This document shows, one piece after another, positions 7,767 through 15,582 of a stretch of 37,987 bases of DNA. The stretch is from Armatimonadota bacterium (GTDB lineage: Bacteria > Armatimonadota > Fimbriimonadia > Fimbriimonadales > GBS-DC), in contig JAUQOS010000013.1 in the NCBI GenBank assembly GCA_030550775.1, positions 1-37,987 on the forward strand, written 5' to 3'. The notes under the pieces are model-generated. The model saw only the letters and a program-made list of their open reading frames with translations. It searched no databases and was not told the origin of the DNA. The number at the start of each line of letters is the position of its first letter. The stretch's first letter is position 1. Position numbers and translations under genes: made by a program.

Positions 7767-9134
7767 ATGAAAACAGCGTTGACATCTACGCGTGTGGAGC
7801 TACTTCGGGAAGACCGAGTAGCGCAGACCGTATGGCGCCTCGCTCTGCCGACGATGGCTGCCTCGGTAGTGCAAACCCTCAACAGCTTCTTGGATCGGAT
7901 TTTCGTGGGGCGGCTGGGACCTGAGGCGTTGGCGGCGGTAGGCGTGGGCAGCCAGATGTTGTTTCTCACGATGGCGCTAGCGATGGCGGTCTCGACGGGG
8001 GCAACCGCGATTGTGGCGCGCATGGCAGGTGCAAACGATCAAGCGAGCTTGCGCGCGGCTGCTCGCCAAGCGTTGGGGTTGGCGTTTGCGTTGGGGATAG
8101 GTTTCACGCTACTGGGCTATCTCCTGCTGCCACAGATTATCCGCTGGTATGGGTTGGAACCGGGCGCGGATGCACAGGCACGCCAGTTTCTGTGGCTGGC
8201 GCTGCTGGGCGCGCCTGGGAGTTTCCTGATGATGGGGCTGAGCGGCACCTTCCGCGGGCTGGGTGACACACGCTCTCCGATGTATGCCAGTATCGTGGCA
8301 ACTGCGGTGCATATTGTGGGCGACTACCTGTTGATTTTCGGCAACTTTGGCTTTCCCCGCTTGGGCATTCAAGGTGCGGGCATCGCGATGGCGCTCTCGC
8401 TATGGGCAGGTGCGTTCATGCTGTGGGCTCAGCAGTGGCTCGGCACCCGCCGCGAGTTAGCCCTCCCCGCCCTGCCGGATTGGCACTGGTGGCGCCGAAT
8501 CTTACGCATCGGGCTACCTGCTTCCGCGCGCACTTTCATCTACACCACCAGCTCAGTGATGTTCACAGGCATTTTGGCAGCCACTGCAGCAGGCACAGCT
8601 GCCGTCGCCGCGCTACCGATCGGGCTGACCGCTGAGTCGATCGCGTTTATGCCGGGCTTTGCGTTTGCAATCGCTGCCTCGGCGCTGGTTGGTCAAGCAT
8701 TAGGCGCAAAAAACGAACGGCTTGCCGAACGCTTCGGCTGGGCAGCTGCTTGGCAATCGTGCGCAGTAATGACCACGATGGCAATCGTGTTCTACCTCTT
8801 TGCCGAGCAGTTTGCAGGGCTATTTACCAGCGACCCACAGGTCAAGGCGCTGGCGGTTGCCTATCTGCGCATCAACGCGCTTACCGAACCGCTGCTGGCG
8901 TTTGGCATGACTTTGGCTGGCGCACTGCAAGGCGCGGGCGACTCGCTCAAGGCGATGATGGCAACCTTCATCACGCAGTGGGTGGTGCGCATCCCGCTGG
9001 CGTACCTGCTGGCGTTGGGCTTCGGGTGGGATGCTGTCGGCGCGTGGTGGGCGATGGCACTCAGCTCAGGCTTCAGCGGACTGCTGATGATTGCTCTGTT
9101 CAAACACGGCGGCTGGAAAAAGGTCAAAGTATAG
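7767..9134 (+). CDS. MATE family efflux transporter
   Basis: 455 residues. The frame is open from a TTG at 7728, but the likely RNA start is at about 7725, so ATG 7767 is preferred; the Shine-Dalgarno signal is weak in either case. About twelve membrane helices fall in two homologous halves of six. Typical MATE stretches are visible: LALPTMAASVVQTLNSFLDR in the first half, PGSFLMMGLSGTFRGLGDTR after helix 4 and FGMTLAGALQGAGDS in the second half. The family exports cationic drugs or metabolites in exchange for Na+ or H+. The gene is single; the next transcription unit starts at about 9202. The exported compound cannot be told from the sequence. Confidence 0.9.
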   Translation: MKTALTSTRVELLREDRVAQTVWRLALPTMAASVVQTLNSFLDRIFVGRLGPEALAAVGVGSQMLFLTMALAMAVSTGATAIVARMAGANDQASLRAAARQALGLAFALGIGFTLLGYLLLPQIIRWYGLEPGADAQARQFLWLALLGAPGSFLMMGLSGTFRGLGDTRSPMYASIVATAVHIVGDYLLIFGNFGFPRLGIQGAGIAMALSLWAGAFMLWAQQWLGTRRELALPALPDWHWWRRILRIGLPASARTFIYTTSSVMFTGILAATAAGTAAVAALPIGLTAESIAFMPGFAFAIAASALVGQALGAKNERLAERFGWAAAWQSCAVMTTMAIVFYLFAEQFAGLFTSDPQVKALAVAYLRINALTEPLLAFGMTLAGALQGAGDSLKAMMATFITQWVVRIPLAYLLALGFGWDAVGAWWAMALSSGFSGLLMIALFKHGGWKKVKV

Positions 9135-9165: not shown

Positions 9166-9195
9166 TTGCAATTCGCACACGCAATCGGTTATAAT
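9166..9195 (+). promoter_or_regulatory. Strong sigma-70-type promoter of the HNH leader RNA
   Basis: TTGCAA (9166-9171) and a perfect TATAAT (9190-9195) separated by 18 bases. This is among the best-matched promoters in the window. Transcription should start near 9202, about 180 bases before the HNH start codon. Confidence 0.65.
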
Positions 9196-9201
9196 ATACC
9201 A

Positions 9202-9359
9202 GCGATGCTCACGCACGGACTGAACGGCTTCGACGGGTCGCGATGGAGCACAGGCTCCTGGTTCGGCACGCGCGGGCGCTACCGGTACCGCGTGCTTTTC
9301 TTGCGTCACGAATCGGGGAGCCTGCGCCAGTCGGTGCGTGTGGCTCCCCTGTTTATTTT
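9202..9359 (+). ncRNA. Structured leader RNA or small RNA upstream of HNH gene
   Basis: About 158 bases from the predicted RNA start to a run of T. Two long-range stems are visible by eye. Stem 1 pairs 9210-9222 with 9328-9340 (12 of 13 positions; CACGCAC opposite GTGCGTG). Stem 2 pairs 9251-9265 with 9309-9324 (15 pairs, two of them G-U, one bulged G). A 7-bp hairpin (GCACGCG 9266-9272 with CGCGTGC 9289-9295) stacks on stem 2. Both 3' arms are also needed for the intrinsic terminator at 9315-9359, so the folds exclude each other, as in attenuators and riboswitches. It could instead be a free-standing rod-shaped RNA such as a 6S-like RNA. I do not recognise a known aptamer. A frame of 61 codons (9205-9390) runs through it without a Shine-Dalgarno site. 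Confidence 0.5.
9315..9359 (+). terminator. Intrinsic terminator just before HNH gene
   Basis: GGGGAGCC (9315-9322) pairs with GGCTCCCC (9342-9349); an inner stem GCGCC/GGTGC closes on AGTC. The hairpin is followed by TGTTTATTTT (9350-9359). It lies between the promoter at 9166-9195 and the HNH Shine-Dalgarno site at 9366-9372, so reading through it is needed to express the HNH gene from that promoter. Confidence 0.65.
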
Positions 9360-9382
9360 GGGGCTGAGGAGGCTGCGCCACT

Positions 9383-9916
9383 ATGGCTGAGGTATTGGTC
9401 TTGAACCAGAACTACGAGCCGTTGAACATCTGCACGATGCGCCGCGCTGTGAACATGGTTCTCACAGGCAAGGCGGAAGTGGTGCTGACCAACGGGCACT
9501 ACATTCGCACGGTCTCGGGCGGGTTCGAAGCACCGTCGGTGGTGCGCTTGCGCTACATGGTCAAGCGCCCCATGCCGAAGGTGCGCGTGAGCCGCCGTGC
9601 TATCCTGGCACGCGACAACTACACCTGCCAATACTGCGGGCATACTTCGCGCGACCTGACGATTGACCACGTAATCCCGCGCAGTATGGGCGGCGGCGAC
9701 ACCTGGGAAAACTTGGTCGCATGCTGCCGCCGTTGCAACCTGATGAAGGGCGACCGCACGCCGCAGCAAGCTGGGATGAAACTGCTGCGCAAGCCCCGTC
9801 GTCCACACTTCGTGCCATACCTCAGCCTCACGCAATACGCGAAGGCGATGTCCCGCGAAGCGTGGCGACAATTCCTACCCGTTTACGACGGGTACACCCC
9901 CGACAGCCACGAATAG
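9383..9916 (+). CDS. HNH endonuclease with PLMP-like N-terminus
   Basis: 177 residues; GAGGAGG lies ten bases before ATG 9383. The C-terminal half is a zinc-bound HNH fold: C82-x2-C85, D95-H96 in [10 protein letters not shown], then C115-x2-C118 followed by N119. The N-terminal 40 residues ([22 protein letters not shown]) belong to a widespread family of stand-alone HNH proteins, and also resemble the PLMP domain at the start of IscB-type proteins; there is no RuvC domain, so it is not IscB. HNH proteins nick or cut DNA or RNA; the substrate of this family is not known to me. The gene follows a structured leader RNA and is followed by an array of hairpins. Confidence 0.85.
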
Positions 9917-9968: not shown

Positions 9969-10085
9969 TGTGCAACTCGTGAGTCTGTTGTGTGAACCCT
10001 CTGACGGCTGAAGCCGTTCGTATGCAAGCCTTGCCCGCCAGTGCGGGCTACAGCATCGCGTCGGCATCCCTTCCAACAACCACGA

Positions 10086-10235
10086 TTGGTGCAACGGCAT
10101 TCGTGCCGTTGCACCAACGCACGACGCCACGAATGGCGTCGCACCAAACCTGTAGCGTCGGCGTCCCCACCAGCAACCACTGGTGCAACGGCTTTCCTGC
10201 CGTTGCACCAACGCACGACGCCACGAATGGCGTCG
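10086..10235. repeat. 94-bp tandem repeat made of two perfect hairpins per unit
   Basis: Unit 1: a 14-bp perfect stem with a TTCG loop (10086-10117), then an 8-bp stem with a CGAA loop (10122-10141). Unit 2 repeats both 94 bases later: a 12-bp stem (10181-10210) and the same 8-bp stem (10216-10235). The linker between them, TAGCGTCGGCGTCCCCACCA (10153-10172), recurs with one change (a C for the T in the middle) at 33618-33637 upstream of the DUF2339 gene, so it is a dispersed element. The units are too long and too few for a CRISPR array. Confidence 0.75.
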
Positions 10236-10266
10236 CACCAAAAAGGATAGAACGTTCTGCTAAACG

Positions 10267-14490: not shown

Positions 14491-14519
14491 ACCGCCACCT
14501 TTGGCTAACGAGTTCGCGG

Positions 14520-14663
14520 CGGCTGGATGCACGGGAAGTCGGTGCAAATCCGACGCTGACGCGCAGCGGTAACTGGGGACGAACGCGGCACAAATGCCAC
14601 TGGCGAACGCTGGGAAGGCGCCGCAAGTAGGACGATCCAGAAGCCCGAAGACCGATCCAGCCG
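14520..14663 (+). promoter_or_regulatory. Cobalamin (B12) riboswitch
   Basis: A complete class-I-type cobalamin aptamer is readable in order: P1 5' arm CGGCTGGAT (14520-14528), GGGAAGTCGGTGCAAATCCG, GCTG and GCGCAGCGGTAAC, the conserved GCCACTGG, TGGGAAGGC, then CCAGAAGCCCGAAGACC and the P1 3' arm ATCCAGCCG (14655-14663, nine pairs). Such elements bind adenosyl- or methylcobalamin and shut off expression. No poly-T terminator follows; a hairpin over the Shine-Dalgarno site at 14789-14812 suggests translational control. The only gene downstream on this strand is a prepilin-type protein at 14824. Confidence 0.92.
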
Positions 14664-14788
14664 TGTCTCGCTCGTTCGCCTCGCGGGTTGGGCGAAAGAG
14701 CGCGCGCAGGGCGTAGCAGTTCGCGGTAGGGGGCTTTCTCATTCCCCCCGCTTGCTCGCGACTGCCCCTGGGTGCAATTTCGTCCCGC

Positions 14789-14816
14789 CCACATAGTGCA
14801 ACACCTATGTGGAGGG
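14789..14816 (+). promoter_or_regulatory. Shine-Dalgarno-covering hairpin, probable riboswitch output
   Basis: CCACATAG (14789-14796), loop TGCAACAC, CTATGTGG (14805-14812): a perfect 8-bp stem. Its last two bases are the first two of the Shine-Dalgarno site GGAGGG (14811-14816) of the gene at 14824. The loop has the self-complementary TGCA also present in the aptamer's P5 loop, so a kissing contact like L5-L13 of B12 riboswitches is possible. Confidence 0.55.
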
Positions 14817-14823
14817 AATAACG

Positions 14824-15582
14824 ATGCTACAGCGAACCGATATTCGGCGCCGCACACGCGGCTTCACACTGATTGAGCTGTTGGTGGTCATCGCGATTAT
14901 CGCCATCTTGGCGGCGATTTTGTTCCCCGTGTTTGCCCAAGCGCGCGAAAAAGCGCGCCAAACCTCGTGCCTTAGCAACCTGCGCCAAATCGGCTTAGCT
15001 GGGCTGATGTATGTCCAAGACTACGACGGCTACCTGTTCCCCTTCGCCTATGACGATTGGACGCACTACTGGTGGGGCTATGTCGACTACGCAAACCAGC
15101 GTGTGGATACCACGCGCAGTTTCCTTTATCCTTACATGCGCAACGCGGAAATCAAGGCGTGCCCCTCATTCCGCGAGAACCGTTCGTTTCAATATTGGCT
15201 GCTCGGCTACGGCTATAACTATGCCTACCTCAGCCCGATGCAAGGACCGCCACGCTACACACCGATTGGCATCTCTACCGCGCGTATCAACGCCCCTGCC
15301 GAGACCGCGTGGATAGCTGATGTGGCGCAGTGGCGCACTTGGGGCGCAGGTGCCCCCGTGTTTGAAGGCACAGGCTACCTCGAACCGCCCTCCTATAACA
15401 ATCCCACCTTCCACGGCAGGCACAACGGGATGGGCAATGTGCTCTGGTGCGATGGGCACGCCAAAGCGTTCAAACCCGTGTTGCGCACTGAAGAACAGTT
15501 CGCTCCTCACCGCCAGCGCAACTTGGGCAACATCGACCGCGACGGCAACCCACAAACCGACGAGCTGATGGACTTAGACTGA
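14824..15582 (+). CDS. B12-riboswitch-controlled prepilin-type protein, copy 2
   Basis: 252 residues. ATG 14824 follows GGAGGG at seven bases; GTG 14809 lies upstream of that site. The leader ends [18 protein letters not shown], so the prepilin peptidase site and N-terminal helix are intact, followed by [19 protein letters not shown]. The C-terminal region has [18 protein letters not shown], the H-X9-DG pattern. The soluble domain is rich in Tyr and Trp. The protein is probably exported and held in the envelope or a pseudopilus. Control by a cobalamin riboswitch is unusual for this family and points to a role in corrinoid or cobalt acquisition, or in a process with a B12-independent alternative; this is inference. 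The gene is monocistronic: the next one is convergent. Confidence 0.88.

Follow-up and report, generated by a model that had tools for sequence, protein, structure and literature searches.

The HNH endonuclease gene of this Armatimonadota bacterium, a member of the order Fimbriimonadales, is preceded by a translated leader which, from the way it has changed among relatives, is very likely a cis-acting attenuator of one sign or the other. The form that we consider probable is an attenuator controlled by the translating ribosome: a pause at a conserved peptide motif would lead to termination, and translating on would lead to expression of the nuclease. Computation supports this through the peptide's coding signal and fixed spacing, an intrinsic terminator and, in the window's family, competing folds. 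These features suggest that the cell decides on nuclease synthesis via a moving or paused ribosome. By the window we mean the whole stretch of DNA analysed, 37,987 nucleotides of contig JAUQOS010000013.1; orthologous loci were compared in 109 other genomes, and family labels (the window's family is f1, its sister family f3) are those of the search tool.

Layout of the locus

A MATE transporter gene ends at 9134, and the leader should therefore have its own promoter. The strong promoter that a sequence-only reading of this DNA had placed here is indeed present (Table 1): the consensus scan returned one match, against 0.4 expected in shuffles, and a TATAAT precedes the leader start codon in 17/17 loci of the window's family. 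Absent from that reading was the translated ORF that follows, which opens with an ATG 9 nt past TATAAT, encodes a peptide beginning MLTHGLNGFDGSRWSTGSWFGTRGRYRYR and closes with a TGA (9388-9390) 8 nt within the HNH gene; the 5' arm of stem 2 lies within its conserved codons. Because the ORF begins so soon after the -10 box, the mRNA is probably leaderless, with its start codon at or near the 5' end. Among 90 leaders, the commonest spacing from -10 box to start codon is 7-10 nt, and 43 have a -10 box of at least 5/6 matches ahead of the start codon, compared with 4.6% of control windows.

Table 1. Features of the HNH leader and gene, in window coordinates
Feature	Positions	Strand	Description
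Leader promoter, TTGCAA-N18-TATAAT	9166..9195	+	Consensus scan, 10/12 matches
Upstream leader ORF	9205..9390	+	61 codons and stop; spans both stems and the terminator, overlaps the HNH start
Stem 1, 5' arm (antiterminator)	9210..9222	+	12 pairs with 9328-9340; covariation in f1
Peptide core RWSTGSWF	9241..9264	+	25 leaders, synonymous codon changes
Extended peptide motif WSTGSWFGTRGRYRYR	9244..9291	+	Proposed pause or arrest region (putative arrest); ends about 20 nt before the terminator
Stem 2, 5' arm (antiterminator)	9251..9263	+	11 pairs with 9312-9324; within the TGSW codons, varies only at third codon positions
Stem 2, 3' arm	9312..9324	+	Overlaps the terminator 5' arm
Intrinsic terminator	9315..9359	+	Arms GGGGAGCC (9315-9322) and GGCTCCCC (9342-9349), then T-rich tail TGTTTATTTT
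Stem 1, 3' arm	9328..9340	+	Sits within the terminator loop
Shine-Dalgarno site of the HNH gene, AGGAGG	9367..9372	+	Direct reading of the sequence
HNH endonuclease gene	9383..9916	+	177 aa, possible PLMP-like N-terminus; Pfam HNH_5 1.2e-17, HNH 4.5e-15

Two further features of the window were recorded. A cobalamin riboswitch (Rfam RF00174, 87.4 bits) occupies 14508-14674 on the forward strand, and the next ORF on that strand (14809-15582) encodes a DUF1559 pilin-like protein, an unusual partner for a B12 switch. A palindromic repeat, GGTGCAACGGC...CCGTTGCACC and GACGCCACGAATGGCGTC, is present in two copies at 10080-10245 and has some 20 further matches in the genome.

The leader encodes a conserved peptide

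Start codon, peptide and -10 box are all present in 17/17 loci of the window's family. The core RWSTGSWF is kept in 25 leaders from three families of the order despite codon change, with five codons used for Arg, four for Thr and both TCN and AGY for Ser; the pattern used to find these leaders prescribed both Trp codons, positions one and two of the Thr codon and part of the Gly codon, and left the Arg codons, the Ser codons and the third positions free. Among same-genus sequences, 88% of the pairwise codon differences within the core are synonymous in frame, as against 0% and 33% in the other two frames; the counts are not independent of one another, and the contrast between frames does not depend on their being so. 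Since synonymous changes are concentrated in one frame only, we read the leader as a translated message, a judgement based on its pattern of change. Downstream of the motif the synonymous share is 6-9% whichever frame is taken, so that by the codon-difference test the C-terminal part of the peptide is without coding constraint. Conservation at the protein level comprises the N-terminal ~29 residues.

In f1 genomes the motif is essentially confined to the HNH leader. The same leader was sought at other genes of these genomes and the idea was dropped, the search giving just a few unrelated pattern matches; no phage DNA resembling the leader was found. The motif is unlike any arrest peptide known to us. 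In one same-genus genome the leader motif occurs where no HNH gene was detected (G002:C109:10191), probably because of a contig break.

Conservation of some 29 residues as protein would also suit a peptide that acts in trans, the terminator merely limiting read-through into the HNH gene. Such a role would leave unexplained why conservation ends at the motif though the frame goes on, why the spacing from motif to terminator is nearly fixed, and why the peptide types described below vary by family at the same place before the same gene; we consider it improbable.

Terminator and competing stems

A terminator directly before the Shine-Dalgarno site of the HNH gene and two long-range stems upstream of it had been read from the sequence, and all three are borne out. 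The terminator hairpin has a 19-nt loop and was missed by a simple terminator scan, which was limited to loops of 8 nt. It recurs in 17/17 same-family loci, where the HNH orthologs of close relatives thus keep the leader, and before the HNH gene in nearly all members of the order; two of its pairs have changed on both sides within the window's family.

Compensatory change, which the same reading had proposed to look for in both stems, was found in stem 1 as well as in the terminator, and not in stem 2. Five pairs of stem 1 have changed on both sides in f1, 0/500 shuffles reach its covariation score, and the score drops when the arms are slid against each other. Stem 2 pairs well, but shows zero two-sided changes in the window's family; the variable positions of its 5' arm are third codon positions, and the stem is evidently constrained by codons on one arm and by the terminator on the other. 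The minimum-free-energy fold of the naked leader (-73.3 kcal/mol, z -2.0; 4/200 shuffles equally stable) includes long-range pairing of this kind.

Other RNA elements were considered and set aside. An internal hairpin, GCACGCG/CGCGTGC, was rejected for lack of covariation. A tmRNA was considered because GGCTTCGACGGGT resembles the tmRNA 5' end; ARAGORN found none in the window, and the genome's strong tmRNA match is on another contig. The leader has no match in Rfam, where a lax threshold gave chance matches only.

A sister family keeps the peptide layout and spacing

In the sister family f3 (probably Fimbriimonadaceae), 65/75 leaders score above 10 bits for the motif [W/R/C]PPxWxDTIIR, whereas shuffled sequences reach 6.8 at most; the motif model was built iteratively from the same sequences and hence favours them. 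The f3 layout is a start codon, 12 codons and then the PPxWxDTIIR-type motif. Taking f3 together with the WSTG group, to which the window belongs, the motif follows the start codon at a distance of 36 or 39 nt in 78/90 leaders; the selection among in-frame starts favoured 39, and in the unselected list of starts most leaders have an ATG or GTG at one of these two distances. Between the motif end and the terminator arm lie 18-28 nt in f3 (mode 21-22, one outlier at 34) and 9-24 nt, mostly 17-24, in the WSTG group, whose motif is counted to W+16, an end point picked after inspection of the data.

Up to and including the terminator 5' arm, the f3 reading frame is free of stops (0/64 leaders with one), whereas each of the other frames is interrupted in 12-13/64. 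Openness is uninformative in the WSTG group, where every frame runs through the arm with no stops or nearly none. Codon 9 of the f3 motif, the second Ile of DTIIR, is AUA in 52/52 leaders (for example L061, L071 and L099), suggesting that, beyond the amino acid, slow decoding of the codon or a constraint at the RNA level plays a part.

The two groups differ in their predicted folds. Measured against shuffles, the terminator arm pairs better than expected with leader codons in the WSTG group (mean z -1.45) and hardly so in f3 (-0.31); the terminator is predicted in the naked leader with a probability of 0.34 and 0.86, respectively, which rises to 0.97 and 0.93 once a ribosome occupies the motif end. 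In f3 a general antiterminator is not above shuffles: the gap pairs strongly with the terminator arm in L061, L101, L075 and L088, and weakly on average (mean z -0.4). Covariation supports an antiterminator in the window's family only. The antiterminator looks like an addition of some lineages; on the evidence of these leaders, peptide, spacing and terminator are what f3 and the WSTG group all share.

These comparisons bear on what kind of element the leader is. The sequence-only reading had left the choice between an attenuator, a riboswitch and a separate structured small RNA. The first of these holds up, with promoter, competing stems and terminator in 17/17 loci and covariation in stem 1; the other two do not. 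If the ORF were incidental, a ligand-binding riboswitch, a protein-binding attenuator or a separate structured RNA could account for the strong fold and for the stem 1 covariation. Yet the conservation tracks codons, the internal hairpin finds no support, the sister family keeps the peptide layout and not the RNA fold, and Rfam, whose reach does not extend to riboswitch classes yet to be described, gives no match. We regard any of these RNA-based readings as very improbable.

Leaders elsewhere in the phylum and beyond

A terminator also stands ahead of the HNH gene in most of the remaining Armatimonadota loci. The sequence of the leader differs from family to family; its position before the HNH gene is constant. 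In other classes of the phylum, leaders of f8 encode QQDxHWRHHRFGHVMRxR followed by a stop (63% of differences synonymous versus 12% and 17% in the other frames), and those of f33-f35 and some f6 and f10 members encode SLRxLEDGxCxxQH (36% versus 10% and 4%), both motifs having been chosen by eye before the testing. Peptide-plus-terminator leaders thus appear to stand before the HNH gene in many Armatimonadota families, with at least four peptide types distributed by lineage.

Several leaders show additional features. In f8 (L135, L234, L235, L239), RWxxWGM lies upstream of the HWRHHRFGHVMR motif and resembles RWSTGSWFGM of the window's group; the two may be of common descent. Some f12 and f18 leaders (L180, L252, L264, L266) appear to contain His-rich short ORFs near the terminator, such as HLQHLHHVCPEAL and HALYHAHLHSHAHC.

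In Chloroflexi and related phyla, inspection by eye revealed no comparable terminator before the HNH gene. Leaders of Thermomicrobia-type HNH genes (L190, L202, L208, L213, L226) carry a GGTTGCGACCGGAACCTGGTGCGAAGGTCCCCCGCGGCAACCCTGACTCCGG-like sequence with apparent pairing in the last ~60 nt before the gene; this region has no Rfam match, and is possibly an unrelated structured leader of the same gene.

A model of ribosome-controlled attenuation

We envisage the attenuator working as follows. Transcription would start about 6-8 nt past TATAAT, a few nucleotides from the ATG at 9205, and the RNA would be translated as a leaderless mRNA. The nascent peptide RWSTGSWF...RYR would then pause or arrest the ribosome some 20 nt before the terminator. 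A ribosome held at the motif would leave the terminator free, so that transcription stops and no nuclease is made; in the window's family it would, in addition, keep the terminator from capture by the long-range antiterminator. A ribosome that has passed the motif would trail RNA polymerase through the terminator, as it can because the reading frame is open across it, and by blocking the hairpin would allow the nuclease to be made. An untranslated leader of the window's family would adopt the antiterminator fold and give read-through as well. We infer the direction of control, and the signal may be one of translation stress or translation speed, the likeliest class. By analogy, the best explanation is a pyrBI-like attenuator with an arrest-type peptide.

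Precedents bear on this model in both directions. The pyrL terminator is suppressed by ribosome coupling, and an upstream polyproline stall raises termination (PMC5021804), a precedent that the PP in the f3 motif fits. Ribosomes close to a terminator repress it in a distance-dependent manner (PMC4824070). Full terminator function in that system required a ribosome distance of more than 27 nt, so that at about 20 nt a ribosome could still interfere with hairpin formation, which counts against the model; the absence of a kept antiterminator in f3 counts against it too.

The same translated leader could instead operate with the opposite sign: a ribosome stalled for lack of a charged tRNA, or by a metabolite or antibiotic, would give antitermination, and smooth translation would give termination. 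The WSTG group does have an antiterminator, whose 5' arm in f1 lies upstream of the proposed stall site, and the RGRYR/RYR stretch shows the +x+ pattern known from macrolide-dependent stalling. Moreover, the known translation-stress uORFs whiB7 and toiL switch their genes on by stalling (PMC13236596, PMC12121999). In f3, however, there is no general antiterminator and the terminator is already predicted in the naked leader; a ribosome stalled ~20 nt short of it therefore has no obvious means against it. The f3 frame, moreover, stays open through the terminator arm. We judge the opposite sign unlikely, while treating it as the chief competitor of the pause-gives-termination model.

The HNH protein and its relation to IscB and IsrB

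The HNH gene is nearly universal in the phylum (263/291 genomes) and chromosomal, and the HNH domain of its product most closely resembles those of IscB and Cas9d. As the sequence-only reading had it, the 177-aa protein is without RuvC, Pfam matching HNH families only. The PLMP-like N-terminus of that reading is possible, with every test falling below threshold. The predicted structure has a beta-beta-alpha-beta-beta N-terminus (mean pLDDT 86.7, pTM 0.56); Pfam RRXRR aligns with residues 4-42 below cut-off (E 0.04), Foldseek matched the HNH-less IsrB (E 0.09, probability 0.99), and hhalign against one PLMP sequence was not significant. The modelled N-terminus is possibly comparable to the PLMP domain of IsrB, a domain with a likeness to the N-terminal part of IF3 (PMC9581776).

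The suggestion that the RNA acts as a guide with the HNH protein found no support. The likeness to the IscB/IsrB OMEGA systems (PMC9581776) lies in a similar HNH domain and a weakly PLMP-like N-terminus, and these are the grounds on which an omega RNA-like guide might be entertained; the differences are that here there is no RuvC match, the gene is near-universal and chromosomal, and the leader is protein-coding, differs in sequence by family and has no Rfam match. For these reasons the protein and its leader are not, by the tests run, members of OMEGA, and we put the chance of a guide RNA close to nil. Altogether, neither a riboswitch nor a guide RNA is a likely description of the leader.

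A far-reaching extension would have nascent-chain sensors, spread through much of the phylum and changing by lineage, place a core HNH nuclease under control of the translation state. In its strongest form, the PLMP/IF3-like N-terminal domain would act on the ribosome or on its own leader, and leader and nuclease would together be a cellular relative of the pair from which omega RNA and PLMP arose. We offer this as a distinctly speculative idea with little chance of being right.

Comparison with known attenuators

Most leader peptides known to work through ribosome position come from a few well-studied groups; in this case a single IscB/Cas9d-like HNH nuclease gene appears with such a leader in many Armatimonadota families. 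The motifs are new candidates for arrest peptides and make clear predictions (on the two Trp positions, PP, AUA-CGN and the terminal Arg), and they offer a testable link between the translation state and a nuclease of unassigned function. In the open-access literature searched we found no paper on the leader of an HNH gene, an absence that is no proof of novelty.

The analogy drawn above is with pyrL/pyrBI of E. coli, for which the original work is reportedly that of Roland (1988). There too a leader ORF runs into an intrinsic terminator (PMC5021804, PMC4824070), and the control proposed here is the same, a close-following ribosome suppressing the terminator and an upstream stall raising termination (PMC5021804). 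The present leader differs in being probably leaderless, in its conserved, lineage-specific peptide and in having an HNH nuclease as target. As far as they are described through PMC13236596, the cysteine-rich short ORF attenuators of mycobacteria (Canestrari 2020, cited therein) are likewise leaderless short ORFs with control by ribosome position, whereas here there is no run of a single amino acid, the terminator is intrinsic, and phylum and gene are others.

The whiB7 and ilvB1 leaders of M. tuberculosis (PMC13236596) combine a uORF, a terminator and an antiterminator, as the window's leader does. In those systems stalling turns the gene on, and the ilvB1 uORF is enriched in the amino acids that it senses; the present leader has no codon run, and an antiterminator is seen in only part of the order. 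Finally, toiL of the topAI-yjhQ toxin-antitoxin operon of E. coli (PMC12121999) is similar in placing a short translation-stress ORF before the gene of a DNA-metabolism effector, and differs in that it targets the ribosome-binding site and Rho rather than an intrinsic terminator.
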